Positions 7,114-62,123 of a DNA stretch of 64,000 nucleotides are shown piece by piece. The notes beneath the pieces were generated by a model that was not told where the DNA came from, did no database searches, and saw nothing but the letters and a program-made list of their open reading frames with translations. The position numbers and the translations under genes are program-made. The stretch's first letter is position 1. The number at the start of each line of letters is the position of its first letter. Origin of the DNA: Fabrea salina (Eukaryota; Ciliophora; Heterotrichea; Heterotrichida; Fabreidae); the NCBI GenBank assembly GCA_022984795.1, contig JALIHJ010000052.1, forward strand, positions 62,001-126,000. Reading direction: 5' to 3'.

Positions 7114-9213
7114 TTAAATTATGAACTTTTTAATCCCTTCAAAGCTAATAGTGCTTTGAGGGACACAAGGAGAAACATTCCTGAGGAACCTCAGAGTAGG
7201 TCTTCCATGGGGACAATTCCAAGGCTGTTCAAGGTCCTCAAGACTTCTGACTATAGAAGTCATGGTTTTAAAGTCAAGCACGTCACCGATCATAACTGCT
7301 TTTCTGCAAGCTCTACTAGCAAACAAGCTTCTGAACTTAAAAGGCCTTATGAGTTTTGCCAGGCTTTCTAAGTCTTGCATCCAGCCTATTTCTCTTGCTT
7401 TGTTGATCATTTCGTACAAGTCATCTAGTTTGAAAACTGAGTTTTTAGAGTAAGGCAAAGCTGTTACCCATATGCCTTGAGTGCGATCTTCTAAACAGAA
7501 CCCGTTGTGCTCAAAGGCAGGCATAAACTTTTTGACGAGGATTTGGTCAGGAAGGTCTAAGTTCAGCTTTATGGGTTTGAGGAGGTTTTGTTTGTGGATA
7601 GTAGTTGTTTTTTGAAGGGTTTCAAAAAGGTACTTTTCGTTGGCTGCGTGTTGGTCAATTATAAATAAGTCTTGAGTGGAAGGCAGTAGAGTCAGAATAA
7701 AACCTCTGTTGAACTGACCTATTATTTTTAGTTCTGAAAAGTAACACTTTTTGAACTGCGAAGCAAGAGCTGCCAAGTCTGTGTCAGGGGACTCGTTGCT
7801 GACTGAGCACCCAGAAGGCAGGTTCAGTGGAACTGGTTGTGTGTTTGGTTTTTGAGGTAAGGCGTCTTTTATGTCCCATTTTAGTTGTTTGGTAGTGGGT
7901 TCTTGGAAAGTTAGTTTAGCAACTTCTGAAGTGCTTAGTTGGGGAGTGGCCTTTGGAGTATAGACTGGCTGAGGGCCTATCTTAACTCCACCTTCTAAAC
8001 TAAGCACTGGCTGAGGGCCTATCTTAACTCCACTTTCTAAAGCAAGTACTGACTGAGGATTGGCTTTAAAGTCACTGCTTTCTAAAATGCAGCTGTTCGA
8101 GGCCCTAGGAGTTTTTTTTATTATATCGAACTTTTTAGTTGGAGCAGTGTCTAACTTAGCTTTTTTAGGTGTTTCTTGGACAGAGGACTTTTTTCTTTTA
8201 AGTTGACTTGTGTCGTTGAACTCACTCTGCGAGCACAGCTTTAGAATCTGTTCTTTGATTTTTAAAACAATTTCCTCTTCTCTGTCCAAGTAAACCTCCA
8301 TTTTGTCAGGAGTTAAGTTAAAGTCACAGGAGTTGCCTTCTATTTTGATAAGATAATTAGGAGTTTTGTTGGTGAATTCCTTAACTATAGCTGAAATTGC
8401 TTTCTTCAGGTTGGGTGGAGCAGACACGTACCTAGAGTTTACAAACAAAAACTGGAACTGACCTGCAAGGCTCGTCTGGGAGTCAATTCTTAAAAACAAC
8501 CCAGTTACTTGAGTGCTTCCACAAGTCAAATTAAACTCTTCCAGGTGCTTAGCAAACTCCCTTCCAAACAGCATAGAAACCTTGTCCTTTGTAGCTTTGC
8601 AAGGCACTGAGTCTATAAGCACATCCTTTTTCTTGTCGAGTAAGTGCAACAACTTAATCTTTTTGTCAGTGTGAACTAAACAGTAAGCTTCTATGAGTTT
8701 CTGCACTTTCTTTAAGTAAAAAGTTTTGCGTTTAGTGAGGTTTTCTTTACGTACAGGCATCCAGTTGAATAAGTTAGTGACTTTGACAGAAGTGCCCACT
8801 TCTCTGCTCAGTGAGCACTTATCAAGGACTTCGCCTTGGTGGTCGAACTGGAGAGTGTGCCCTACTTCAGCTGAGAAATGGCGCGTAGTTATTTGCACAG
8901 AAGCCATTTTAGCTAAAGACCCCAAGGCTTGGCCTCGGAACCCCAAAGTGCTGACTTGAGTTATGTTTTCGAAACTACTCATTTTAGAAGTGCAGTTGTC
9001 TTTGCAAAGCAGTGGGAAGTCGCTGGAAGGGATGCCTGAACCGTTGTCAGTGACTTCTAGTCCCTGGAGCCCAAAGTTAAGTAAGGACACTGTAACGTGA
9101 GTAGCTTTAGCGTCAACAGCATTTTCAAAAAGCTCTTTGACCACACTGACTACATCTGTGATTACTTGTTCAGCAGTTATTTTAGAACTGAGGCCCTGGG
9201 AAAGTTGGTTCAT
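7114..9213 (-). CDS. PMS2: MutL homologue of the PMS2/PMS1 type (mismatch repair endonuclease)
   Basis: A 699-residue nuclear mismatch-repair protein. The N-terminal GHKL ATPase shows motif I (VVKELFENAVDA, about 24-35), motif II (VTDNGSGI, about 54-61) and motif III (TLGFRGQAL, about 88-96). The C-terminal domain keeps the metal-binding endonuclease motif DQHAANEKYLFE (about 518-529), FASRACRKAVMIGD and NCPHGRPT, which together mark the PMS2 (yeast PMS1) branch rather than MLH1. It would act as a heterodimer with MLH1. The linker carries about two and a half copies of a 14-residue repeat ending GVKIGPQP. The ATG at 9211-9213 overlaps by one base the stop of the upstream small ORF. It is shorter than human PMS2 (862) because of a short linker. 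Confidence 0.95.
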   Translation of the reverse strand: MNQLSQGLSSKITAEQVITDVVSVVKELFENAVDAKATHVTVSLLNFGLQGLEVTDNGSGIPSSDFPLLCKDNCTSKMSSFENITQVSTLGFRGQALGSLAKMASVQITTRHFSAEVGHTLQFDHQGEVLDKCSLSREVGTSVKVTNLFNWMPVRKENLTKRKTFYLKKVQKLIEAYCLVHTDKKIKLLHLLDKKKDVLIDSVPCKATKDKVSMLFGREFAKHLEEFNLTCGSTQVTGLFLRIDSQTSLAGQFQFLFVNSRYVSAPPNLKKAISAIVKEFTNKTPNYLIKIEGNSCDFNLTPDKMEVYLDREEEIVLKIKEQILKLCSQSEFNDTSQLKRKKSSVQETPKKAKLDTAPTKKFDIIKKTPRASNSCILESSDFKANPQSVLALESGVKIGPQPVLSLEGGVKIGPQPVYTPKATPQLSTSEVAKLTFQEPTTKQLKWDIKDALPQKPNTQPVPLNLPSGCSVSNESPDTDLAALASQFKKCYFSELKIIGQFNRGFILTLLPSTQDLFIIDQHAANEKYLFETLQKTTTIHKQNLLKPIKLNLDLPDQILVKKFMPAFEHNGFCLEDRTQGIWVTALPYSKNSVFKLDDLYEMINKAREIGWMQDLESLAKLIRPFKFRSLFASRACRKAVMIGDVLDFKTMTSIVRSLEDLEQPWNCPHGRPTLRFLRNVSPCVPQSTISFEGIKKFII
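7964..8056 (-). repeat. Coding 42-bp (14-aa) tandem repeat in the PMS2 linker
   Basis: Two adjacent 42-bp units, nearly identical, encode (S/P)VL(A/S)LE(S/G)GVKIGPQ, with a third partial unit. They lie in the disordered linker between the ATPase and endonuclease domains, roughly residues 386-416. Confidence 0.7.
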
Positions 9214-26916: not shown

Positions 26917-28263
26917 ATGGGTCCAAGGCACTTTAAGAACCTAAAAAACTGGTGGAATTACATGACCGCCACTTTTGGACTCAATACTCTTTTGGTGCTG
27001 TTTTTAGTGTACTGGGCACAAGGATTCAAACAGTTCGGAATACTTGCTGTGACCTTTTATTACAAAGAAACACTTAAATTATCAGCTTCCACCACACAAT
27101 TCATAAGGACTGTCACTTACATAGCTTGGTTCGTTAAGCCTTTCTATGGAATTCTAAGTGACAACATTCCAGTGTTTGGGTTCCATAGAAAGAGTTACTT
27201 GACCCTTTCTGGGATTGCAGGAGTGGTTTCCTCTTTTAGTTTGTTCTTCATTGAAGACCCAGTGTACTCGTGCTTAGCACTACTGGTCTCTGAGTTCTCT
27301 GGAGCAGTGTCAGACGTAGTAGCTGATGCAATCATGGTCCAGGAATCCCGCAAGGACCCTAAAGAGGGCTCAGAAAACCTACAAAGTTTTTGCTGGATGG
27401 TGCTAAGCTTAGGAGGACTCATTGGTGCACCTTTAGGAGGAGTAGCTTTGGACCACATTGCTCCTAAGTACATCTTGGGTTCTTTGTTTGTGTGTCCTTT
27501 GCTTCTGTTGTTTGCAGCTAATAGCTTGCGCGAAGAACCCTCTACTCCAAGCTTTTCAACTGTGCAAACGAAACTCAAAGACTTGTTTGGGGCTTTTAAA
27601 GAGCCCAGCATAGTCAAACCAATGAGTTTTATGTTTTTTGCCAGAGCGTGTTCGCCCTCGTACCCCGAACTCACAATATACTTTATGAAAGACGAACTTG
27701 GGTTTTCAGCTACCTTCATGTCTCTAATGGGACTTGTAGGGTATCTTTCTCTAGGAATAGGCAGCTTTATGTACAAAAAGTTCTTGAAAGGCTGGAGTTT
27801 TCCTAAGATACTAGGATGGGGTCAGGCACTTTTGGCGTTTGTAGGAGTGCTAGACTTGCTGCTTGTGACTAAAGCTTTTGAGCTCCTGAAGATTCCAGCT
27901 ACTTTGTTTGCTCTAGGAGGAGACTCTGTGTCTTCAGTGGTGAACTTTACCTTTAGCTCTATGCCATTCATGGTGTTGTCTGCAAAGCTCTGTCCAGAGG
28001 GGTGCGAAGCTACTTTGTTTGCTTTATTTTCTTCAGTGATAAACTTAAGTTTTGCTACTTCTATACTGTTAGGAGGAGTGTTAACTGAGTTGTTCCAAGT
28101 AGACACAAACAACTACGAGTACATATGGTTGCTTATGACTATAAGGATAGTAACAAGGTTTCTGCCCTTCTTCATGCTGGGCCTTTTGCCCAAACCTGAC
28201 AAAAAAGAAGAATACTTCATAGAATTCGAAGTCTTAGACGAGCCATTTAACAGTGTTACTTAA
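26917..28263 (+). CDS. Folate-biopterin transporter (FBT/BT1 family, MFS)
   Basis: A 448-residue protein with 11-12 predicted membrane spans and BT1 family signatures: [20 protein letters not shown] in the first span, [20 protein letters not shown], then KSYLTLSGI. Family members in protozoa, plants and cyanobacteria import folates, pterins or related compounds. The stop codon at 28261-28263 lies inside the last codons of the convergent giant gene. Confidence 0.9.
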
Positions 28264-31200
28264 GTTTTAAGCTTCTTTCAAGTTCGGAAATCCTTTTCTC
28301 GTACTTTCTGCGTTGCTGTGAAACTTCTTGTTTGAGTTGCTTAATGTAGTTTTCGTACTTTTGAGCAACGTCTGCAGTGCTTTTTTCTAACTCGCACCTT
28401 TCTTCAAGGAGCCTGTTGAAAACGTCCAGTACGTCTGTAGGGTCAACATCCTTGTTTTCAAGTATTCTTTCAATATACTCTAAAGTGCCTTCTGGATTCT
28501 CTTTTGCAGACACGAACTCGTTAAGTTCGTCCATGTCTAGGTTTAAAATGTCCATGCAGTCGGTGTAGTATTCCTTGTCCATTTGCCCTGAACTTCCTAA
28601 TTGGGACTTGAGTGACTCTACTTGGGAGGCCAGCTCTCTAAATATCCTTCTTGTGATTTGGTAGAGTGCTTGTAACTGGGACTCGCTTTTTTTAAGTTGT
28701 AGTTGGAGTCTTTCGTTCTTCTTGATTTCTTTTTCAAGCGAAGTGTAGGTTTCTGCTGAGTTGGTTTGGTTTTCTGCTTGTAGAGACTCAAGTTCCATCT
28801 CTGTGGTTTCTAGTTTAGCTTTAACTGCTTTGATTTGGGAGTCTTTTCTTTCAAGGTCAGTTTTAAGTTTTTTAACTTGTTCTTTTAGTTTTTCGTTTTG
28901 TTCAGTTTTGGTTTTTTGGTTTTCGAACTCAAAACTTAAGTTGTCTAGTTTGTTTTTGGTTTCTTTGATAATAGTGTCTTTTCTGACTAAGTCGTTTTTC
29001 ATAGTTTTAATGCGTTCAGCCATAAAGGTGTTATCCTCAGTAAGTTTTTTTTCGATGTCTTTGTACTGTTCAATAGAGTTTTTCATTTCAAAAATAGTTT
29101 TGTCTTTCCTAGTCATTTCGCTTTTCATCTTTTTCATTTTTTCAGAAATGTCTTTGGCTTGCTCGATCTCGTCTTGTAAAGCGTTGGCTTCAGTTTCTTG
29201 TTGGTCTTTAAGGGCTTTGTAGTTCTCTAAAAGTTCTCTTTTTCGGTTGAGTTCTTCGTTGGCTCTTTTAAGCGAGATTTCAAGTTCTTTGTTGGAGTTA
29301 AGTAAGTTGTTCCACTCGTCAGGAGAGTGCCACTTAGTTTTGACTCTGTTGACTTCTTCTGAGAGTTTCTGGATTTCGTAGCGGTGTCTTTTTTCGAGTT
29401 CTTGTATTTCTTTGCGGTTTGAAGTGCCTTTTTCTTTGATTTCTTCTTGAATGTTCATGTTGGTGTACAGTTCATCTCTGAACTTTTCAGCTTCTTCTTT
29501 AACAGTGTTGAGTTGGAACTCTAGGTTTTTAATGATTGCTTTGAGTTTGTAAACTTGGCTTTGGAGGATAACTACGTCTTCAGGTGCTTCAGTTTCAGCT
29601 GAGGGTTTAGACTTGGTTTTGGGCTTTTTGGTTCTGAGTTCGTTTTTAAGCGAGCGAATCAAAGCGTCTTTTTTGGAGATTTGGAGCATGTAATCAAAGC
29701 TTTCAGCAGACTTCTTAGGCCCTTTTCTAGTGCGCAGTTCTTGTAAGTACTGTTCTTTTAAGCTTGAAAGTTGGGTTTCGTATTTGTCAGTAGTTTTTTG
29801 GAACTGTTGGTAACTGTTGTGGACTTCTTTTTTCATCTCGTCAAGTTTCTCACAGTGTTTAGTTTCTAGTTCGGTTTTTTCGTCTTGGAGTTCTTTTACT
29901 CTAGTTTCGAGTTCTTTAATGGCGGCTTTGTTTTGTTTCTTGGCTTTTTCGAGGCCGTCTAGTTTAGGTTCGGCTTGTTCCCAGGCGTTTTCTAGTTCTT
30001 TGATTTGTCTGTAGAGTTCTTCTTTTTCGTTTTCTTTGTTTTCGAGTTCTTTTTTGAGTTCTTTTTCTCTGTTTTTGAGGGACTTTGCTTTGGCTAGTTC
30101 TTGGGTAAGTTTTTCTTTGAGTTGTGAGATTTGGGTTAAGTAGTAGGTTTCTAGTTCTTTTTTGTCTTTTTCAGCTTGTTTGACATACTCAGCGTAGTTC
30201 TCTGCGTTGTCAACTTTTTCTTGGAGTCTGTTGAGTAGGTTGTCTTTTTCTTGTTTTAAAGTCTCGTTTTGTTGCTGGACAGTGTAGGTTTTGTGTTCTT
30301 GTTTTTGAATTTGTTCTTTTAACTCAGTTTCTGCTTTTTTGAGTTCTTGGTACTTAGTTCCTTGTTGTTTTTGGAGTTTTATGAGTTCTTCTTCTGCTTT
30401 AAGGCGTTTTCTGACTTCTTCGTCTAGGGATACTATTTTTTGTCTGAGTTGTTCTTGGAGTTCGTAGATCTTTTTTTGTTTTTCTTGAATTTGAGTTTCT
30501 AAGTTTTGCTTTGCTAAGTTGAAGTCTTGGGTTTGTTCTGGAATCATTCTTTGAGGCGATCTTTCGTATTTTCTAGTATGGTGTTTGTGCTTGTGGGTTT
30601 TCTTTGAGGGTTCTTTTTGGGGTTCTTTTTGGAGTTCTTTTTGGAGTTCTTTGAGTTGCGATTGCAAGTGGGCTTTTTCTTTGTTGTGTTTTTGGGTTTC
30701 ATAGTCTAAGTCATCTTTCAAGGCAGTAACTCTGCGTTTGAGGTCTTGGTTTTCTTCATCGTAGCTTCCTTTTTTTCTGAGTTTTTCAAGTTCGTTTTTG
30801 AGTTCTTTGTTTTGGCGTTTTAAGTTGCTTACTTCAGAAACTTGTTTGGTTTTTTCCTCCTGCATGAGTGACACTTGTTTCTGTAACTCAGAAACGTGTT
30901 TATCCTTGGACACAAGGGTTTGTTCGTGTTGGTTTTTCCAGTCTTTCATTTTTTGTCCAGATTCTTTTTTGGAGTTGTAGAAGTAATTAAGTTCTTCTTG
31001 GAGTTCTTGGCACCTTTGGTCTAGGCTGTCGCATTCTTTCTGGACTTCTGAGTACTTGTAGTAGTTTTCTTCCAGCTGTTCTTCTAGTTTTTGTTTTTGC
31101 TTGATGTAGTGTTCTTTTTCTTGGATTTCTCTGTTAAGGTGTCTGTTGACTGACTCCAGTTCTTCTTGGAGTTCCTGTACTTGGTACCCATAGTCCATTT

Positions 31201-34200
31201 TGAGTTTTAGCATTTCTTCTTCAGTTTTGTTTTTCATTGTTTCTGCCAGTAAGGCCCTTTCCCTGTAGTTCTGTTCACTAGTGTCGCACCCCCTCATGTC
31301 TTGGAGGTCGCTTTTGATCAGTCCGCAGGTTTGCCGCAGCACTTCGATTTCGTCAGCTGTTTGCTTAGTGCGGTTGGCAAGTTCAATAGCAGCTCCTTTG
31401 TACTGCGCCGAAGAGGCCATGTTCCCTGAAACTTCTACTGATATTTGGTTAGTGAAGTCAACTAAGTTTTTAATAGTGTTGTGACTTAGAGAAAGTTGGG
31501 TTTCTAGGAGTTCTACGTACCAAAGTTGCCTGTCCTCTTCCCTAGAAGGTTTGTATGTGATCAAGTTCTGCATAGGCTCGCCTTTAGTAGCTTTGTAGAG
31601 TGACTGGGTCAAAGCCCTTATAACTATTCTTTGGGCGTTTTCTATGTTAGGGTAGTCTCCTTGCATCACACTTGAGCCCTTTTCTAAGTCTGTGAGTTGC
31701 TGAGTCAGGTAAATGATCCCTTCTACTAGTACAGGCAAGTCTTCTTCACTAGCTATTTCTTCTTCTTGCTGCCACAAACTAGACAAAGGCACGTACTGCC
31801 CCCAAGAGTTAGCTTCGCTTAGTCTAAGTTCAGCTACTTGCGCTTCGAGTTCTCTGACTCTTTTTTTCAAGAAGTACTCAGGTTCTTTGCTTTCGTCCAG
31901 GTAAAACTCTTCTGGGGGTTCTGGCAGGTTTTGGGACTCCATGTACCTTCTGAGGTTAACTAGCTTAGCTTCAAATAGCCTGGCTGTTTCGTCCTTTTTA
32001 ATGAGTTGTTCTCTGAGTTCTCCTTGGTTCTTGGCAGAAGCTCTGAGTTTCCTAGAGGCGTCTGACTCACCTAGTTTGGCAGCAATAAGTGCCCTTACTA
32101 GTCTTTGGGGTCCAATAGCTTGGGGTCTTTGAGGCTTTTCAAGGGTCAGTTTTGACTTAGTTTGTTTTTTGGGTTGTGGGGGTTCTAGTCCAAGGCCCGA
32201 CTTAAGTTCCATCACTACTTGTTTTTGGGCTTCGAGTTCTTCTTTGACTTTGTAGTGTTGTTGTGATAAGTTTTCGTACTTAGTTGAGTAGTCCACATTT
32301 GAGTCTCTCAAGTGCTGAAGTTCCTTGTTGAGTTCTTCAATGTGAAGTTTCAAGTTGTAGTTTTGGTTTTTAAAGTCTCCAGGGAACTCTCCGTCTTGGA
32401 ACTTTTCGTTCATTTGGTTGTACTCGTCTTGTAATTTTTCTTTGTGTTGTTTAAGTTCTAGTTGGCTTTGAGTTTTTAAGTTTTGGATTTCAACTCGGTG
32501 TTTTTCTTTCAACTCAGTGATTTGTTTTCTAAGTTCAACTTCTCTTTGGGTTTCTGGAGTAGGTTGTTCGTTTTTGAGTTTTTTCAAGCTGTTAAGTTCT
32601 CTTTTGAGTTCAGCTATTTTTAGTTGCAAAAAGTTGTTTTCTTCTTTTCTGACTTGGTTTGACTCTTTGAGTTTGAATATTTGGGCTTGTTTTTCGTCAA
32701 GTTCTTCTTTCATCTGGGAAGTTTCTACTACTTGTATGCTAACTTCAAGTTCTTTTTTTTCTAAGTCGTTTACTATTTGAGATAAGTTTTCGTTAGCCAT
32801 TTCTAGTGAGTTCTTGTCTTGAATTGCTCTGTTTAGTTGTGCTTGTAAGTAGTCAACTTGGATTTTGAGTGCGCAAATTTCTCTACTGAGTTCTAAGAAC
32901 TTGTTAGGGTCAGCTGTTTCTACTCCTATTTTCACAATAGTTGAGTCTACGTAAGCTTTAATTTCTTCGTCGCGTATTTTCATTTGACTAGACACTTCTT
33001 CTTCAGCTTTACTTTGTAAGAGTCTTTGGAGGCTTCTTGAGTTAGAATTGAGCATGGCAACTTTGCTTTCTAAAGCTTCTGCTTTGTTTTTGTACCTTTC
33101 GATGTCACACAGCAACTTTTGGTTTTGCTTTTCAGACTGCTGCAGTTGAGTGTTTCTGTCTTGGAGGTCTTGTTGGATTTGCTTGAGTTTGGAGTGGTAA
33201 ATTTCAGGGTTAGGCATGCTTAAGAATTGGTGTTTAGTTTGAAGTTCTCCTGAAAGCATTTGGACTTCGTCAAACAACCTTTCACAAACTTCTATAGTGC
33301 CTTCGTCTAAGTATCTAAAGTAAACCTCGCTTCTAATTAGGAACTCTAGTTCTTTGTTGCGGCTTTCGTACTTAAGTAGCGTTTGATCGCACTCACTTAT
33401 GATGCTCTGCATCTGGCCAATGACCTTTTTAAAGTACTCAGGGTCCTGAACTTTGTGTGAGATGTTAGAAAGTCCTATAGCTAGTTTGTTCACTGCCAAT
33501 ATTAAAGGCCTGTCACTTTCGGACTCCTGCAAAAGGTTTTCTTGTTCTTCGCGGACCTTAATAAGACTGTCTCGGAAGTCCTGGCGTTCTTTAGCAAGTA
33601 CTTGGGAGTGTCTTTTTTGGGATTGGTGGAGTTGTTCCATGTACGAGTGGATTTTTTCTTTGCTAGCCTTTTCTTCTTCTTTGAGTCTCGAAAGCTGAGC
33701 TTTGAGAGTAAATATGTCGTGGTTCTTGACTGAAACCTCTGCTTCAAGCTCTTTAGTGGACTTTTTGAGTTCTTCGATTTGCTGAGTTAAGTTGGCTTTT
33801 TCTTGTTTGTCTTGTTCAAACTTTTCTTTGAGTTTTTCGTTTTCGTTGCACTTGGACTCCTTGTCTTTCATAAGAGCTGAGATTTCATTATTTAGTTGGG
33901 AGATTTGTCTGTTTAGGTTCTGCTGGATAGTTTTGCTGTGACAAACCTTAGCTGACAGGTCCACAAGTCTTTGGTCTAGGTCAGGAGTGCCTTCAATAGT
34001 TTCCATAAGTATAGCTATTTGAGAAGTTCTTTCTTGTATAGAAGCTTCTTTTTCATTAAGTTCTGTTTTAAGTCTCTGGAGTTGTTTTTGGAGTTCAGCT
34101 TTTTCGTTGGCTTGTATGCTGTTATTTTGTTCTAGGTTGTTCATGAGCTCGGAGTTCTTGTGTTGCAAAGTAGTTACTTGGAAACTTAAAGAGTCTACTT

Positions 34201-36475
34201 TTTTTCTGGAGTTACTTAGTTCTTCTTCTAAGTTTTCGTTTCTTTTTTCTAAAAACAAAGCTTCTCTTTGCATTTTGCTGATTTCGTCAAGGTGTTCAGA
34301 GCACTTTAAACTGTACTTTTCTTTGAGTTGGTGGGTTTCTTTAAGGGCTTCGTAGTGTTTGTTCTGGTATAAAGTGGATTCTTTGTTGAGTTCAGCTATT
34401 CTTTTTTCGTAACGACGCATTTCGAACTGCTCCCAGTCAAGTTCAAGGCCTTCTTTGGGTTGTTCTTCAGTTTGACTAGAACTGCTTTGTTTTAGTGACT
34501 GAGAAGCAGCTCTAGACAAGGACTCTTTTTCGACTTCCCAGTTTTTCCTTTCTTCTTCAAGTTGTGTTTTGAGGCGCTTAGTGGTTTCTTCAGCTTTGGC
34601 TGCTGCAGTTAAAGCTTCTTCTTCTCTGGACTTGAGGTTTGAAATTCTGGCGTTGAGTCTAGTGACTAGTTGGGTTTGGGCTTGGATGTTTTGGGTGAAG
34701 TTTTCAGAGGAGTCTATTTTTTGGAGGATGCCTGCCATTTCACTGTGGAGTTCTTTGTTGGCGTTTTCTAAAGACTCCACTAGTTTGCCCAGTTCTGACT
34801 TTTCTCTGTCAAGTTCAGAAACTTTGTGCTTTTCTTCGTGCAAAGAGTTCCTTAGTTGTTGTATTTCTTCTTCAGGAGAAGGAGCAGCTTTCACCATAGC
34901 TTCAGCTTCTGCGTGGGCTTTTTGGACTTCTATGATTCTGTTTTGCATTTCGATGAGTTCTTTGTTTTTCTTAGCCAGTGACTCTTCTAGTTCTTGCCAG
35001 TGCACTTTGGACTCTTTTAGGCTTTCAGAAAGTTTTAAGTTTTCAGCTTCTAAGTTTTGGATCCTTTGAACCTTTTCGTCACTGTCTGAGTCAAGTTCAG
35101 ACTGTTTGAAGGTGTTGGAGCTCTGCTGGCTTTCAGCAAGTTGTTTGAAGAGGTTCTTGTTTTCTTCTTCCAGTTGAAGTACTTTTGAAAGCACTTCATG
35201 GTAACTGGCTTGTGAAAACTTTCCTAAAAGTGACTCGATGTGCTCTGACTGGGTAGACACCTTAGTGCGCAGTTCAGTGATGACTTGGTCTTTTTCTTTA
35301 AGGACTTTGTCGTGTTCTTGGCGAATGGACTCGTGGCGGTTGCTTAGTTCCAAGACGTAGTTTTCTCTTTTTTTGAGTTTGTTGACGTCTTCGTCAGCCT
35401 TTTTGAGTTTTTCAGTGAGTTCCTGGATCCTTTTGATGTTTGACTCAGCTTCTTGCTTGTAAGACTGTATTTCTTGTTGCATGTTTTCAATTGTGACTTC
35501 CATGTCATAGCTTCCACTCATTTCTAAACTGTCTACTTTTCTTTTTAACTCAGAAACTTGTTTTTCTTTGTCGTAGTTAACTTGTTTGAGTTCTTCAATG
35601 GTAGAATTGGCTGACTTCAAAGACTCCTCAGCGTTAGTAAGGAGCACTTTGGTGTCAGTCACTTTATGCTGCAGCTGAGTGATGATTCCTTGTTGTTGCA
35701 CAACTCTGCCTTCTAAGTCTTCGATAAGTGAGTCTTTGATTTGGAGGATTTCTAAGACCTTAGCGTTTTTCCTTTCGTTCCTTTCTCTTTCTTGTTGCAA
35801 AGTGAGGTCCACAAGGTTTTCTAAGCTAGGAGCTTTGTCTCGGAGTGCGTTTTTTACCTGCTCTAAGTACACGTCGTTCTTTCTGTACTCTTCGAGGGAA
35901 GCGTTGAGTTCGGTGTTGGTTTCTTGGAGTTTAGCTAGTTCTTGTTCGACTCTGGACTTCTCCTCTATAGTGGCCTGTGCTTGGTTCATAGCAATGTTTA
36001 TCTCTTGGAGTTCTTCTTCGAGTCTTTCTATTTTTTGGTAGGCTTGTTCGAGTTCGAGTTCTTTGTCGTCTAGTTGTTGCTTGATTCTGAACTTGGACCG
36101 CGAGATTTCTTCTAGTTGTTTTTGTTCAGATGTCTTCAGTGGCTTGTCCCACTGGGGCTTGAGACTCACGTAGAACTTTTCTTCGAAGTACTCTGAGTAG
36201 ATGTGAATTACGTCACGAATTGTCCATCCAGCTTTGTGCTTTCTCAGCAAGCTAGCGGTTATTTGGATTACTATGCTTTCGTTAGGAGAGAGTGAAAGGT
36301 GCGCGGGTTTTATTTCGTAGGACCTGTCAATGGTAGGGCCGGGTTTTATACTGAAACTTAAAGGGTCTTTTGAAATGTTAGTTAAAGTAACTTCTGCTGT
36401 TTCTGGGTTTTCCACTTCAATGCCCTCAATTACTACCTCTTCTGGGTCAACTAAGATTCTGCCGCTCTGGTGCAT
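28256..36475 (-). CDS. Giant MSP-domain plus coiled-coil protein (2,739 aa)
   Basis: An uninterrupted 8.2-kb reading frame. The N-terminal domain (about residues 1-115; ILVDPEEVVIEGIEVENPET, then TLTNISKDPLSFSIKP) has the immunoglobulin-like pattern of MSP/PapD or ASH domains. Such domains target proteins to membranes via VAP-like contacts, or to centrosomes and cilia. Everything after is heptad coiled coil rich in Glu, Lys, Gln and Leu, with a less repetitive island at about 1490-1740 (including SWGQYVPLSSLWQQEEE). A non-coiled C-terminal block follows at about 2600-2690 (DKEYYTDCMDILNLDMDELN). The layout suggests a basal-body or fibre scaffold such as CEP290, CROCC/rootletin or golgin types, but no orthology can be claimed. 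Its stop overlaps the convergent gene by 8 bp. Confidence 0.85.
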   Translation of the reverse strand: MHQSGRILVDPEEVVIEGIEVENPETAEVTLTNISKDPLSFSIKPGPTIDRSYEIKPAHLSLSPNESIVIQITASLLRKHKAGWTIRDVIHIYSEYFEEKFYVSLKPQWDKPLKTSEQKQLEEISRSKFRIKQQLDDKELELEQAYQKIERLEEELQEINIAMNQAQATIEEKSRVEQELAKLQETNTELNASLEEYRKNDVYLEQVKNALRDKAPSLENLVDLTLQQERERNERKNAKVLEILQIKDSLIEDLEGRVVQQQGIITQLQHKVTDTKVLLTNAEESLKSANSTIEELKQVNYDKEKQVSELKRKVDSLEMSGSYDMEVTIENMQQEIQSYKQEAESNIKRIQELTEKLKKADEDVNKLKKRENYVLELSNRHESIRQEHDKVLKEKDQVITELRTKVSTQSEHIESLLGKFSQASYHEVLSKVLQLEEENKNLFKQLAESQQSSNTFKQSELDSDSDEKVQRIQNLEAENLKLSESLKESKVHWQELEESLAKKNKELIEMQNRIIEVQKAHAEAEAMVKAAPSPEEEIQQLRNSLHEEKHKVSELDREKSELGKLVESLENANKELHSEMAGILQKIDSSENFTQNIQAQTQLVTRLNARISNLKSREEEALTAAAKAEETTKRLKTQLEEERKNWEVEKESLSRAASQSLKQSSSSQTEEQPKEGLELDWEQFEMRRYEKRIAELNKESTLYQNKHYEALKETHQLKEKYSLKCSEHLDEISKMQREALFLEKRNENLEEELSNSRKKVDSLSFQVTTLQHKNSELMNNLEQNNSIQANEKAELQKQLQRLKTELNEKEASIQERTSQIAILMETIEGTPDLDQRLVDLSAKVCHSKTIQQNLNRQISQLNNEISALMKDKESKCNENEKLKEKFEQDKQEKANLTQQIEELKKSTKELEAEVSVKNHDIFTLKAQLSRLKEEEKASKEKIHSYMEQLHQSQKRHSQVLAKERQDFRDSLIKVREEQENLLQESESDRPLILAVNKLAIGLSNISHKVQDPEYFKKVIGQMQSIISECDQTLLKYESRNKELEFLIRSEVYFRYLDEGTIEVCERLFDEVQMLSGELQTKHQFLSMPNPEIYHSKLKQIQQDLQDRNTQLQQSEKQNQKLLCDIERYKNKAEALESKVAMLNSNSRSLQRLLQSKAEEEVSSQMKIRDEEIKAYVDSTIVKIGVETADPNKFLELSREICALKIQVDYLQAQLNRAIQDKNSLEMANENLSQIVNDLEKKELEVSIQVVETSQMKEELDEKQAQIFKLKESNQVRKEENNFLQLKIAELKRELNSLKKLKNEQPTPETQREVELRKQITELKEKHRVEIQNLKTQSQLELKQHKEKLQDEYNQMNEKFQDGEFPGDFKNQNYNLKLHIEELNKELQHLRDSNVDYSTKYENLSQQHYKVKEELEAQKQVVMELKSGLGLEPPQPKKQTKSKLTLEKPQRPQAIGPQRLVRALIAAKLGESDASRKLRASAKNQGELREQLIKKDETARLFEAKLVNLRRYMESQNLPEPPEEFYLDESKEPEYFLKKRVRELEAQVAELRLSEANSWGQYVPLSSLWQQEEEIASEEDLPVLVEGIIYLTQQLTDLEKGSSVMQGDYPNIENAQRIVIRALTQSLYKATKGEPMQNLITYKPSREEDRQLWYVELLETQLSLSHNTIKNLVDFTNQISVEVSGNMASSAQYKGAAIELANRTKQTADEIEVLRQTCGLIKSDLQDMRGCDTSEQNYRERALLAETMKNKTEEEMLKLKMDYGYQVQELQEELESVNRHLNREIQEKEHYIKQKQKLEEQLEENYYKYSEVQKECDSLDQRCQELQEELNYFYNSKKESGQKMKDWKNQHEQTLVSKDKHVSELQKQVSLMQEEKTKQVSEVSNLKRQNKELKNELEKLRKKGSYDEENQDLKRRVTALKDDLDYETQKHNKEKAHLQSQLKELQKELQKEPQKEPSKKTHKHKHHTRKYERSPQRMIPEQTQDFNLAKQNLETQIQEKQKKIYELQEQLRQKIVSLDEEVRKRLKAEEELIKLQKQQGTKYQELKKAETELKEQIQKQEHKTYTVQQQNETLKQEKDNLLNRLQEKVDNAENYAEYVKQAEKDKKELETYYLTQISQLKEKLTQELAKAKSLKNREKELKKELENKENEKEELYRQIKELENAWEQAEPKLDGLEKAKKQNKAAIKELETRVKELQDEKTELETKHCEKLDEMKKEVHNSYQQFQKTTDKYETQLSSLKEQYLQELRTRKGPKKSAESFDYMLQISKKDALIRSLKNELRTKKPKTKSKPSAETEAPEDVVILQSQVYKLKAIIKNLEFQLNTVKEEAEKFRDELYTNMNIQEEIKEKGTSNRKEIQELEKRHRYEIQKLSEEVNRVKTKWHSPDEWNNLLNSNKELEISLKRANEELNRKRELLENYKALKDQQETEANALQDEIEQAKDISEKMKKMKSEMTRKDKTIFEMKNSIEQYKDIEKKLTEDNTFMAERIKTMKNDLVRKDTIIKETKNKLDNLSFEFENQKTKTEQNEKLKEQVKKLKTDLERKDSQIKAVKAKLETTEMELESLQAENQTNSAETYTSLEKEIKKNERLQLQLKKSESQLQALYQITRRIFRELASQVESLKSQLGSSGQMDKEYYTDCMDILNLDMDELNEFVSAKENPEGTLEYIERILENKDVDPTDVLDVFNRLLEERCELEKSTADVAQKYENYIKQLKQEVSQQRRKYEKRISELERSLKLK

Positions 36476-36496: not shown

Positions 36497-39400
36497 TTAT
36501 GCTTTATTATTAAGTAGTTTTGCAAACAGTGCCCCTATTGCGCCTGTGCAGCCTAAAACAATAGCGTACTTGCTAGCAAGAGTTGACTGAGAAATCCTAG
36601 CTATGTCTTGGCAGCTCGCTAGGGTGTACTCTAGGTTTTTGTTTTTGGCTTGTGCGTTTTTGAGGTCTTCTTTGAGTTTTTCAACAGCGTTTTCTAGTTT
36701 CCGGAGTTCTTCAGAGCGCTCTGCGTTGGTTCTGGACTCAGACAGCATTCTTGAGTAGTGGTGGGAGTCAAGTGGGTTTCTTCTGTTTGGAGAATTAGAA
36801 CGGTTCCTTAGGGGGCTTGACCTGCGTTCTCTGTACTCCCTAGTTCTGTTTTCTAAGTTGGAGAGTTGGCTTTGGAGTTCCTTTAGGGTGATTTCTTGTT
36901 CCCTGTCGAATTCTTGTTCTTCTTGGTCTAGTTTTCTGAGTTCCACTTCTTGGAAGTCCACTTGCTTTCTTAGTGATTCTTTTTGGTGAATGAGTTTGTT
37001 TTTGAGTTCGTTTTTGAGTTTTTTGAAGTTTTCAGTTTGTTGGTAAACGACTTTTTGGTCTTGTTCAGATTGAAAAATCCTTTTTTGTAGGTCTTCAACT
37101 TCGTTTTTCGAACGGATGATTTTGTTTTTGGTCTGTTCAAATTGAGTTTCTAGTCTTCTTAAGGAGTTTTTGAGGGCTAGGATTTCTGAGTCGGTGTTTT
37201 CTAGAGATAGTTTGAGTTGCTGGTTGCTTATTGTCCTTTCAGAAACTTCTGAGGTAACCTGTTGCAGGACTTGTTGGGTGTGAAATACATTGTAGTTGGA
37301 GTCTTCCAGGAGTTTATGATGCTCTTCGTTTTTCGCTTTGATTTCTTCTAGTCTTTTAGTTTTGGTTTCTATGTGCTTATGGATTTTTTGTATTTTCACA
37401 GAAGTTTTGTCTTTGATTTCTTCTTCTATCTGTGAAACTTCTAAGTCATACTTTCTTTTTTCTTCCTTTTTGTATTCTAGGTCCCTTCTGATGTTTTGGT
37501 AGTCGTATTCAGCATCGTTTTTATTCTTAATGAGTCTTTCAAGTTCTCTTTTTTGGGCTTGTTTTAGATGAACAATTGGTCTTAAAGCTGGAGTTTTTTC
37601 AAGGTACATGTCAACGAGCTTTCTAATTCGGGCACCTTCTTCTGAACCAGCTCTAGCTAATTCTTGGTTTCTTCTTCTGGCTGCTTCTGCGGCTCTTTGG
37701 CGTCTTTCCAGGGCTAGTTGCTGAGTTTGTTCTTCGATGAGTCTAGGAATAATACCTGTGTGGTACAGTTCGTAGTTCATCCTGAGTTGGTTAAGCAGGG
37801 CAATTAGTCTTTGGTTTGTAGACCCGTTAGCTTGTGGCTGTGCTATAGGAGTGAACTGCGAAATTCTAAAAGCCCAAAGTGCTTCTTCGTCTCTGAGGTT
37901 GAAGTGGCTAGGTAAAAACCCTCCAGGTCTCTCTGAGTAACCTGAATGGAAGCGAGTGAAGTCATCTGATTCTGGGGCTATGAAACCCCAAAGTGCTTCT
38001 TCGTCTCTGAGGTTGAAGTGGCTAGGTAAAAACCCTCCAGGCCTTTCTGAGTAACCTTCATGGAAGCAAGTGAAGTCATCTGATTCTGGAGCTATGAAAC
38101 CCCAAAATGCTTCTTCTGCTTCAGGATTGAAGTGGCTAGGTAAAAATCCTCCAGGCCTTTCTGAGTAACCTTCATGAAATTGAAGAAATTGATCTGATTC
38201 TGGAGCTATGAAATTCCAAAGTCTTTCCTCTGCTTCAGCATTGAAGTGACTAGGTAAAAACCCTCCAGGCCTTTCTGAGTAACCTTCATGAAATTGAAGA
38301 AAGTAGTCTGATTCTGGAGCTATGAAACCCCAAAGTCTTTCCTCTGCTTCAGCATTGAAGTGGTTAGGTACGAACCCTCCAGGCCTTTCTGAGTAACCTT
38401 CATGAAATTGAAGAAATTGATCTGATTCTGGCGCTATGAAACCCCAAAGTCTTTCCTCTGCTTCAGCATTGAAGTGACTAGGTAAAAACCCTCCAGGTCT
38501 CTCTGAGTAACCTGAATGGAAGCAAGTGAAGTCATCTGATTCTGGAGCCACAAAACCCCAAAGTGCTTCTTCGTCTCTGAGGTTGAAGTGGCTAGGTAGA
38601 AACCCTCCAGGCCTTTCTGAGTAACCTTCATGAAATTGAAGAAATTGATCTGATTCTGGTGCGATTAAAACCCAAAGTCTTTCCTCTGCTTCAGCATTGA
38701 ATTGAGTAGGTACGAATCCTCCAGGCCTTTCTGAGTAACCTTCATGAAATTGAAGAAAGTAGTCTGATTCTGGGGCTATGAAACTCCAGAGTGTTTCTTC
38801 TGCTTCAGCATTGAAGTAGTTAGGTACGAATCCTCCAGGCCTTTCTGAGTAACCTTCATGGAAGCGAAAAAGTCATTGGTTTCTGGAGCTATGAAACCCC
38901 AAAGTCTTTCCTCTGCTTCAGCATTGAAGTAGTTAGGTACGAATCCTGCAGGCCTTTTTGAGTAACCTTCATGAAATTGAAGAAATTGATCTGATTCTGG
39001 GGCTATGAAACCCCAAAGTGCTTCTTCGTCTCCGAGGTTGAAGTGGCTAGGTAAAAACCCTCCAGGTCTCTCTGAGTAGCCTTCATGGAAGCAAGTGAAG
39101 TCATCTGATTCTGGGGCTATGAAACCCCAAAGTGCTTCTTCATCTGTGAGATTGAAGTGACTAGGTACGAACCCTCCAGGCCTTTCTGAGTAACCTTCAT
39201 GAAATTGAAGAAATTGATCTGATTCTGGTGCGATTAAAACCCAAAGTCTTTCCTCTGCTTCAGCATTGAAGTGACTAGGTAAAAACCCTCCAGGCCTTTC
39301 TGAGTAACCTTCATGAAATTGAAGAAAGTAGTCTGATTCTGGAGCTATGAAACCCCAAAGTCTTTCCTCTGCTTCAGCATTGAAGTGGTTAGGTACGAAC

Positions 39401-41724
39401 CCTCCAGGCCTTTCTGAGTAACCTTCATGAAATTGAAGAAATTGATCTGATTCTGGCGCTATGAAACCCCAAAGTCTTTCCTCTGCTTCAGCATTGAAGT
39501 GACTAGGTAAAAACCCTCCAGGTCTCTCTGAGTAACCTGAATGGAAGCAAGTGAAGTCATCTGATTCTGGAGCCACAAAACCCCAAAGTGCTTCTTCGTC
39601 TCTGAGGTTGAAGTGGCTAGGTAGAAACCCTCCAGGCCTTTCTGAGTAACCTTCATGAAATTGAAGAAATTGATCTGATTCTGGTGCGATTAAAACCCAA
39701 AGTCTTTCCTCTGCTTCAGCATTGAATTGAGTAGGTACGAATCCTCCAGGCCTTTCTGAGTAACCTTCATGAAATTGAAGAAAGTAGTCTGATTCTGGGG
39801 CTATGAAACTCCAGAGTGTTTCTTCTGCTTCAGCATTGAAGTAGTTAGGTACGAATCCTCCAGGCCTTTCTGAGTAACCTTCATGGAAGCGAAAAAAGTC
39901 ATTGGTTTCTGGAGCTATGAAACCCCAAAGTCTTTCCTCTGCTTCAGCATTGAAGTAGTTAGGTACGAATCCTGCAGGCCTTTTTGAGTAACCTTCATGA
40001 AATTGAAGAAATTGATCTGATTCTGGGGCTATGAAACCCCAAAGTGCTTCTTCGTCTCCGAGGTTGAAGTGGCTAGGTAAAAACCCTCCAGGTCTCTCTG
40101 AGTAGCCTTCATGGAAGCAAGTGAAGTCATCTGATTCTGGGGCTATGAAACCCCAAAGTGCTTCTTCATCTGTGAGATTGAAGTGACTAGGTACGAACCC
40201 TCCAGGCCTTTCTGAGTAACCTTCATGAAATTGAAGAAATTGATCTGATTCTGGTGCGATTAAAACCCAAAGTCTTTCCTCTGCTTCAGCATTGAAGTGA
40301 CTAGGTAAAAACCCTCCAGGCCTTTCTGAGTAACCTTCATGAAATTGAAGAAAGTAGTCTGATTCTGGAGCTATGAAACCCCAAAGTCTTTCCTCTGCTT
40401 CAGCATTGAAGTGACTAGGTAAGAACCCTCCAGGTCTCTCTGAGTAACCTGAATGGAAGCAAGTGAAGTCATCTGATTCTGGCGCTATGAAACCCCAAAG
40501 TCTTTCCTCTGCTTCAGCATTGAAGTGACTAGGTAAGAACCCTCCAGGTCTCTCTGAGTAACCTTCATGAAATCCAACATAGTCGTCAGTCTCAGTGACC
40601 ACAAAGCCCCATATCCTCTGCTCAAACTCTAGATCATACTTACTTCGTATAAAACCCTTGCATTCTTCTGCATTCTGGTTTTTTCCAACTTCCGCGCTTT
40701 CAGGTTTAAGCTCTTTTTTTTTAGCTGCTTTTTGCTTCTTCTTATCTTTCTTAGTTATAGCTGATCCACCTTCTTTTCCCTCTTCCTGATTACCAGATCC
40801 ATCCCCTAAATCAACTTCTTGGAATTCCTCATCAAGGTTCTTTTTGACTTCTTCTTTAACGGATTCCTTTGTTTCTTCAGTGCTTTCACAAACTTCAGAT
40901 CTTGAGATTCCTGATTCGTTGTCTTTTATGTCTTCGTTTGCAAAATCCGAGTGATTAGATGCTAGCACTCTGGGTCTTTCTGAGTAACCTTCATGCAATC
41001 GAACAAAGTTATCCGGTTCTTGTGCGACAAAAGCCCAAAGTCTTTCTTCGTCTCTGAGATTGAAGTGACTAGGTATGAAGCCTCCAGGTCTTTCTGAGTA
41101 ACCTGAATGAAAGCGAGTGAAGTCATCTGGTTCTAGGACCATGAACTTCCAGAGTGTTTGTTCATTTCTTATGTCGGAAGGTTTAAAGCCTTGACCTGAG
41201 GGACCTTTGTTCTGGTTTTTTTTAGGGCTTTTAGAGTTGGCTTTTTTACGCTGCTTTTGCTTCTTCTTGTTTTTCCCACCCATTTTATTATCAGAGCTTG
41301 AAGTAAACTGTGGGGGACCCTTTAGTCCTTCAAGTTGAATAAAATGCTTAGTTCTTTCTGACTTAGGAGTGTGGAATACCTTAAAAGACTCTTCACTGAC
41401 TCTTGGTCTTCTAGGCGAAGGAGTTACAGACACTCCAGGTATGGATTCAAAGTTTAGCTTTTTCTTGAGTCCTCTGAGGGCTTTAGTAGATAGAGACTTA
41501 GACTTTTCAACCTTATACCTTGAAATGGGGGGCTCAGTTTTAGAAAAAACATTCTTAACAGCCTTTACAGACTCCCTAGTAGCTAGTTTGCTTACTGAGC
41601 TAGTTTCAGAACATTCTGGTGAATGCAAACTAAGTTCAGAATTATTAGGATCGGGTGTAAACTTAGTGCGTTGGAGGCTTTTAGGTTCCTCTGAACTCTC
41701 AAAAGATTCTTGCGATCTTAGCAT
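36497..41724 (-). CDS. Tail-anchored protein with 26 copies of a 38-residue aromatic repeat, reading frame split by one base
   Basis: Family unknown to me. Two abutting frames (38776-41724 and the frame downstream to 36497) form one gene of about 1,742 residues if a single base is restored at 38867-38871. That run has five A where the duplicate at 39892-39897 has six. Order: Ser-rich head (1-145), Lys-rich stretch, two divergent repeats, acidic/Lys spacer (about 265-355), 24 repeats, coiled coil, Ser/Arg patch, and a hydrophobic tail (YAIVLGCTGAIGALFAKLL) four residues from the end. The repeat core is FHEGYSERPGGFLPSHFN, then an acidic EEx(L/F)W and GFIAPESDxFxxF. It lies 21 bp upstream of the giant coiled-coil gene on the same strand. 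A structural or membrane-scaffold role is inferred. Confidence 0.75.
37865..40590 (-). repeat. Array of 24 coding 114-bp tandem repeats
   Basis: Each unit is 114 bp (38 codons), fixed in length without a single indel except the one A-run difference. Two further diverged units lie upstream at about 40975-41150. Unit types differ in the acidic linker (NAEAEERLW, NLRDEEALW, NLTDEEALW, NLGDEEALW, NPEAEEAFW) and in the Phe segment (DDFTCF, QFLQF, YFLQF, NDFFRF). Confidence 0.9.
38215..40405 (-). repeat. Higher-order tandem duplication, 1,026-bp (nine-unit) period
   Basis: The block of repeats 5-13 is followed by repeats 14-22 in the same order with the same variants, offset by nine units. The stretches I compared by eye are identical except one A in a homopolymer. 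Copy boundaries lie near 38215/39240 and 39380/40405, where the units diverge again. Confidence 0.82.
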
Positions 41725-60998: not shown

Positions 60999-62123
60999 TT
61001 AAAGAATGTTAAGTAGAATTAAGGATCCTAATGCCAAAGCTAGGCTCGAGTCATGACTGTAGTCTGAATAGCCTTTAAAAGCATAAATGGTTACAAAGTA
61101 CTCATCAATGAAGTAAGGGTCCCAGTTGTAGATGAGGTACTTTTTCAACTCTTCTTTAGATTCAAAAGTGTTGTTGTTCCTTCTAGCTTCACTCACTAGA
61201 AAGTTAGACAAGAAAGTGGACATAGCTACTGCATCTTCATCATGAGGGATGATTGCAGTGTTCCACTCATAAAGGTTCTTTTCAGGGTGGAACTGGGATC
61301 CGTAAATAGGGTAGTTTTTAGCCTCTATCATAGCTATGAATTGTTTACCCTTCTTATCCTCCATGGTGCTCAGGACTGTGTAGGTGTCAGATAAGTTTTT
61401 GTAGTCTTTGTAAGACTCTGGAGCTACTCCATGGCTGTGAGACAACAAAGACAACTTGAAATTTTCCATCTTTTTCATAACCATCCAGCCTATTTCTGAG
61501 TTATAAGATGTAAACACCCAAGAACTGTTAGCAGCATCTGTAAAGTTGTTTCTTCTTACGTAAGGAGGCTCTCCATCGAAGTCGCCGATTGTTTTGTAAT
61601 CATTGTTGGCACACACGTTAATCACTTCAAACCCAAGGCAGGTGGCCCAGAGTGGGTAGTAAGTTCCGTTGTCGTTGATTTTTTTCACAAGATCGTACAA
61701 GTAGCAAGCCTTTGCTCCGTAGTCATCTGAAAGTGGAGGGGGTGTTTGAGTTGAGTTCTTAGTTTTCCAAAAGTTAGCAGCTCCTCCTGTGAAGAGAATT
61801 CCATTAAGTTGCTTGGCTATTTTTTCAAGGTCATCAAATGACTGGTCTATAAGTAAAGGAACCACCCTAGCTCCAGCCATTTCTACGTACTTAACGTAAG
61901 AAGCAGCAATGTACGTAGTTAGGTCCTGGGGCACAGGAAAATCCTCATAAGGATGAAGAGGCAAAGACAAAATGCCAATAACTGGTCTGTCGTTGTTTTG
62001 ATAAGGAGGTGCTTTAGAAAGAGTTTGTTCCTCCAAAACAGAGTAGTACTTAGTAAGTTGTTCTTCAACTACTGAAGCATTCACAGCTAAGGCTAAAAGC
62101 AGGAAGTAGAATTTGTTCACCAT
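60999..62123 (-). CDS. GGH: Gamma-glutamyl hydrolase (folate polyglutamate hydrolase), possibly GPI-anchored
   Basis: A 374-residue secreted/lysosomal cysteine peptidase that trims folate polyglutamates. A signal peptide (NKFYFLLLALAVNAS) precedes RPVIGILSLPLHP; the nucleophile Cys is in LWATCLGFEVI and the catalytic His in PIYGSQFHPEKN. Several N-glycosylation sites occur. The C-terminus ends in a hydrophobic run, SSLALALGSLILLNIL, right at the end with small residues before it. That fits a GPI-anchor signal, unusual for this enzyme. Length is about 50 more than human GGH. Confidence 0.93.
   Translation of the reverse strand: MVNKFYFLLLALAVNASVVEEQLTKYYSVLEEQTLSKAPPYQNNDRPVIGILSLPLHPYEDFPVPQDLTTYIAASYVKYVEMAGARVVPLLIDQSFDDLEKIAKQLNGILFTGGAANFWKTKNSTQTPPPLSDDYGAKACYLYDLVKKINDNGTYYPLWATCLGFEVINVCANNDYKTIGDFDGEPPYVRRNNFTDAANSSWVFTSYNSEIGWMVMKKMENFKLSLLSHSHGVAPESYKDYKNLSDTYTVLSTMEDKKGKQFIAMIEAKNYPIYGSQFHPEKNLYEWNTAIIPHDEDAVAMSTFLSNFLVSEARRNNNTFESKEELKKYLIYNWDPYFIDEYFVTIYAFKGYSDYSHDSSLALALGSLILLNIL

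Follow-up and report, generated by a model that had tools for sequence, protein, structure and literature searches.

A tandem array of 38-residue units, recently enlarged by block duplication, in a putative scaffold protein of the ciliate Fabrea salina

In a 64,000-nucleotide stretch of the genome of the heterotrich ciliate Fabrea salina (positions 62,001 to 126,000 of contig JALIHJ010000052.1, hereafter the window), a minus-strand gene (36497..41724; ATG at 41724, TAA at 36497, from open reading frame (ORF) calling and choice of the first ATG) encodes a tandem array of acidic, aromatic 38-residue units. The regularity of this array mostly reflects recent DNA copying, and the amino-acid sequence of its units has been conserved by selection. 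Behind the array, the protein is predicted to form a coiled coil and to end in a hydrophobic stretch. We tentatively propose that the product is a lineage-restricted scaffold of a heterotrich-like ciliate in which a multivalent array is joined to the predicted coiled coil and possibly to a tail anchor, a reading that we hold to be a little short of probable. The location and strand of the gene agree with an earlier annotation based on the letters of the window and their ORFs (the sequence-only reading).

Tandem Repeats Finder detects a period of 114 nt with 23.5 copies at 37899-40573 (score 3392), which together with the comparison of units bears out the 114-nt/38-residue period and the core motif described in that annotation. 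Its count of 26 copies corresponds to the 26 GYSxRP cores that we counted manually, though only 23 of these belong to intact 38-residue units, one lies in a frame-broken unit and two lie in the N-terminal region. The intact units form two in-frame runs, one of 15 units (38878..40587) and one of eight units, the last diverging at its end (37853..38764), both delimited by ORF translation and unit comparison and separated by the frame-broken unit of 113 nt (38765..38877). The claim that every unit is exactly 38 residues long thus holds for all 23 units of these two runs and for the one full N-terminal copy (41127-41014), but not for the 113-nt unit nor for the other N-terminal copies, which are partial or degenerate. 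FH, G-Y-S, RP, GF, P, FN, EE and W are invariant in the intact units; among the 15 distinct units, fifteen positions are invariant, W and H included. The consensus unit has a net charge of -6 and nine F/W/Y/H residues, and the array as a whole a net charge of -0.14 per residue. The 15-unit run has no stop codon in frame 0, compared to 14 to 55 stops in each of the other five frames, and therefore reads as coding.

The history of the array is visible at the DNA level. A nine-unit block of 1,026 bp is present twice; the two copies have the same DNA in eight units, and in the remaining one they differ by a single T. Among the 23 intact units there are 15 different DNA sequences and eight exact pairs, the members of each pair nine units apart, and the mean identity at the nine-unit lag is 0.944 (1.00 in 8/14 comparisons) versus 0.80-0.87 at all remaining lags of 15 or fewer units. 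Because a recent in-frame duplication yields units of constant length, the equal lengths do not count as independent; the strict length constraint proposed from the sequence alone does not follow, and unit length does not argue for a solenoid. For the 15 distinct units, the ratio of the proportions of nonsynonymous and synonymous differences (pN/pS) is 0.40 (95% interval from a codon bootstrap, 0.20-0.77, with 0.1% of resamples at least 1), and the amino-acid sequence has therefore been conserved by selection. Third codon positions are the most variable among the distinct units, and the N-terminal unit differs from the array with a pS of 0.43 and a pN of 0.18.

Diverged copies of the unit extend into the N-terminal region (40588..41724; 379 residues, delimited by composition and similarity to the unit), which is rich in S, K and E with lysine-rich stretches (13% lysine) and near neutral overall. 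Besides several degenerate units, it holds the one full unit (41014..41127, from unit comparison), which has diverged from the array. Degenerate half-units matching the GF-x-P...LW-x-F half lead into both the main array (GFIR...WGFVVTET, 40588..40656, from local alignment to the consensus) and the N-terminal unit. Aligned to the consensus, they score 68 (array, with the surrounding 130 residues) and 45 (N-terminal unit), values reached by 0/500 shuffles, the stretches for these alignments being chosen by eye. The N-terminal stretch around SEESFKVFHTPKSERT may be an older copy still (score 41; 9/500 shuffles as high). Heterotrich introns are 15-16 nt long, and a 15-nt candidate at 40643 on the minus strand was rejected because the residues there show no gap in their alignment to the unit. 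Over the whole window, GTA...AG-type candidates number 23 at 15 nt and 18 at 16 nt, no excess over the 10 to 23 at the other lengths from 12 to 25 nt.

Between the array and the C-terminus, a region of about 417 residues (36569..37819) is predicted to form long helices and a coiled coil. In a single-sequence AlphaFold2 model of 527 residues, helices span residues 88-107, 110-162, 164-272, 281-419 and 439-526, and the predicted local distance difference test score (pLDDT) of the block reaches 91. The predicted helical region has two inter-helix gaps, one of them rich in S, R, P and N, and a crude heptad scan finds heptad-like patches in parts only. Such long modeled helices are consistent with a coiled-coil scaffold. 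Of all 19-mers in the gene, the one with the highest mean hydropathy (1.78; 36512..36568, residues 769-787 of a 791-residue ORF) ends four residues before the stop, while the next best in either ORF of the gene reaches 0.37 and no N-terminal hydrophobic segment is found. By this simple hydropathy scan, which is not a dedicated predictor, the 19-mer appears as the sole hydrophobic segment and lies close to the C-terminus, as would suit a tail anchor. Both the coiled coil and the hydrophobic tail with its possible membrane anchor, as proposed in the sequence-only reading, are thus retained as predictions.

The searches for relatives gave no match to a named family. In a Pfam scan, no family reaches its cut-off for any part of the gene (matches of 10-16 bits versus cut-offs of 24-34), in line with the earlier description of the repeat as unrecognized. 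Searches of the 18.3-Mb genome with the array, the N-terminal and the C-terminal parts give this locus alone among the matches listed. At E <= 0.001, no homologue was found for the array region among 7,994 candidates with lengths of about 541-1,720 residues, nor for the C-terminal region among 7,994 candidates of about 435-1,384 residues, length limits that exclude an orthologue of the same size (about 1,742 residues). A control search with the SAS-6 ORF of the window returned 36 proteins among 7,993 candidates, including one at 99% and proteins of Stentor coeruleus and Blepharisma stoltei, and heterotrich proteins are therefore present in the database searched. Against PDB sequences, the best E-values are 0.37 with eight units and 0.081 with a two-unit profile, and the C-terminus has no match at 0.01. 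In viral contigs, 43 pattern-matching stretches encode no relative. In prokaryote genomes (43 stretches), the one relative that was reported lies in a Clostridiaceae contig and covers 26 residues (50% identity); it has stops just upstream in the same frame and is read as chance. No title or abstract opening among the literature matches listed is about this repeat; Fabrea is mentioned in PMC13059789.

The gene is made up of two minus-strand ORFs, 41727-38776 (983 codons) and 38872-36497 (791 codons), which meet in the 113-nt unit; should the frame break prove spurious, the gene would count about 1,742 codons. The frame is lost at about 38869 (T run at approximately 38867-38871), where a T6 run is T5 in the second copy of the nine-unit duplication. 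Programmed frameshifting was rejected, as the other copy of this stretch reads in frame, and the likeliest explanation is an assembly (consensus) error in the repeat or a very young mutation. Were the break real, the protein would end within the array and lose its coiled coil and tail. Such a decaying gene, to which the location of the break at a T run lends some support, is very unlikely in our judgment, given hundreds of open codons on either side, a homopolymer length difference within a near-identical duplication, where consensus errors would be expected, and the amino-acid selection among units, though the latter may be older than any recent decay. An array of rigid alpha-helical solenoid type, with two short helices per 38-residue unit forming a rod or a peptide-binding groove, seems to us unlikely. 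Structure prediction, which the sequence-only reading had suggested as a check, yielded no confident fold for the units in AlphaFold2, the low-confidence prediction being two helices per unit, and the constant length on which the solenoid claim was built is explained by recent duplication. Foldseek searches of structure libraries with the array model, the viral library excepted, gave no match at E <= 0.001 and, in a second look, generic helical-repeat rows only. Scaffolds of the armadillo/HEAT/PUF type resemble the array in having tandem units of similar length and in the low-confidence two-helix prediction, but here no Pfam family reaches its cut-off, no Foldseek match passes that threshold, the model is of low confidence and the unit has a conserved G/P-rich turn with FH and W.

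About equally doubtful is a mostly disordered sticker-and-spacer region that would condense via aromatic, arginine and acidic residues. The array is rich in E, F, G, P, A and S, its aromatic residues are distributed along the unit, and a pLDDT of 25-35 without an alignment points the same way, though poor single-sequence models are common for novel repeats; yet the fifteen invariant positions are tighter than stickers require, even if a recent common origin also cuts variation. Another reading takes the unit as a new folded repeat, confined to this ciliate lineage, that polymerizes or crosslinks to build a filament or an elastic layer attached to the membrane, its reach tuned by the gain and loss of blocks, which we consider quite unlikely. 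Finally, the array could present short docking motifs to make a membrane-anchored receptor for membrane turnover, for example of the Atg8-binding form, W-x-x-I/V following acidic residues. All 23 intact units have W31 and E27-E28, and 22 of them have I or V at position 34, but the motif is short and common and the residues beside W misfit its stricter forms, and the idea appears far-fetched.

In the scaffold reading that we tentatively prefer, the protein would dimerize or oligomerize through its C-terminal coiled coil, and its hydrophobic end may tether it to a membrane with the remainder in the cytosol. The array, enlarged by tandem duplications both of units and of the nine-unit block, would offer many copies of one binding surface and could collect partners or sister molecules via weak multivalent contacts. 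This layout is golgin-like, as in tail-anchored coiled-coil tethers: a long predicted coiled coil precedes a C-terminal hydrophobic stretch and there is no N-terminal hydrophobic segment. It differs from them by its large repeat array, and no solved protein is similar by sequence at E <= 0.01. Sfi1-type and giant spasmin-binding proteins of contractile ciliates likewise have long arrays in large ciliate proteins, but the acidic, aromatic unit is unlike the Sfi1 motif, and the Sfi1 family is absent from the Pfam matches (three stretches, E <= 10, with HMMER filters dropping most matches above 0.1). Several points weigh against the scaffold. Lineage restriction is provisional, since full-length proteins fell outside the homologue searches; the last two units have a pLDDT of 25-35 in the single-sequence model, so that a defined binding surface is only putative; the tail is only moderately hydrophobic, with glycines within; and this assembly shows a broken frame.

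The adjacent giant gene (28256-36475) has a frame of 2,742 codons. Its N-terminus gives a weak match of MSP/ASH type (Cep192_D6, 20.8 bits versus a cut-off of 35) and is followed by an apparent very long coiled coil. The first ATG of the giant gene lies 21 nt past the stop of the repeat gene, and the two had been suggested to be partners, possibly in a cortical fibre; these data support neither the partnership nor the fibre. The closeness of the two genes means little because gaps of at most 25 nt separate 16/29 adjacent ORF pairs of the densely packed window, and 7/11 of the same-strand pairs. These counts are based on ORFs of at least 200 residues starting at the first ATG, a set of 30 (34 listed, three omitted, the two ORFs of the repeat gene merged). 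One convergent pair overlaps by 8 nt. The stop codons of the 30 ORFs are TAA in 26, TAG in three and TGA in one, and long ORFs under the standard code with all three stops indicate that this code fits. The source assembly counts 18,328,466 bases in 103 contigs, and the genes of the window are eukaryotic and ciliate-like, among them a tubulin-tyrosine ligase family member, a kinase with EF-hands, an ion channel with a cyclic-nucleotide-binding domain and SAS-6 (55% identity to a Stentor coeruleus protein, 50% to one of Blepharisma stoltei), which places the organism within the heterotrichs or near them. In this ciliate genome, the ORF at 14902-15915 matches LSDAT_prok (57.5 bits; SLOG-in-TRPM family, prokaryote type). 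A MutL-like ORF contains a short 42-nt tandem repeat (7964-8058).

At present, the gene adds one more tandem-repeat, scaffold-like protein. Its repeat sequence has no match in the libraries searched, and its array has been caught shortly after a block duplication. If the unit folds or self-assembles, the architecture of ciliate cells would gain a new building block.
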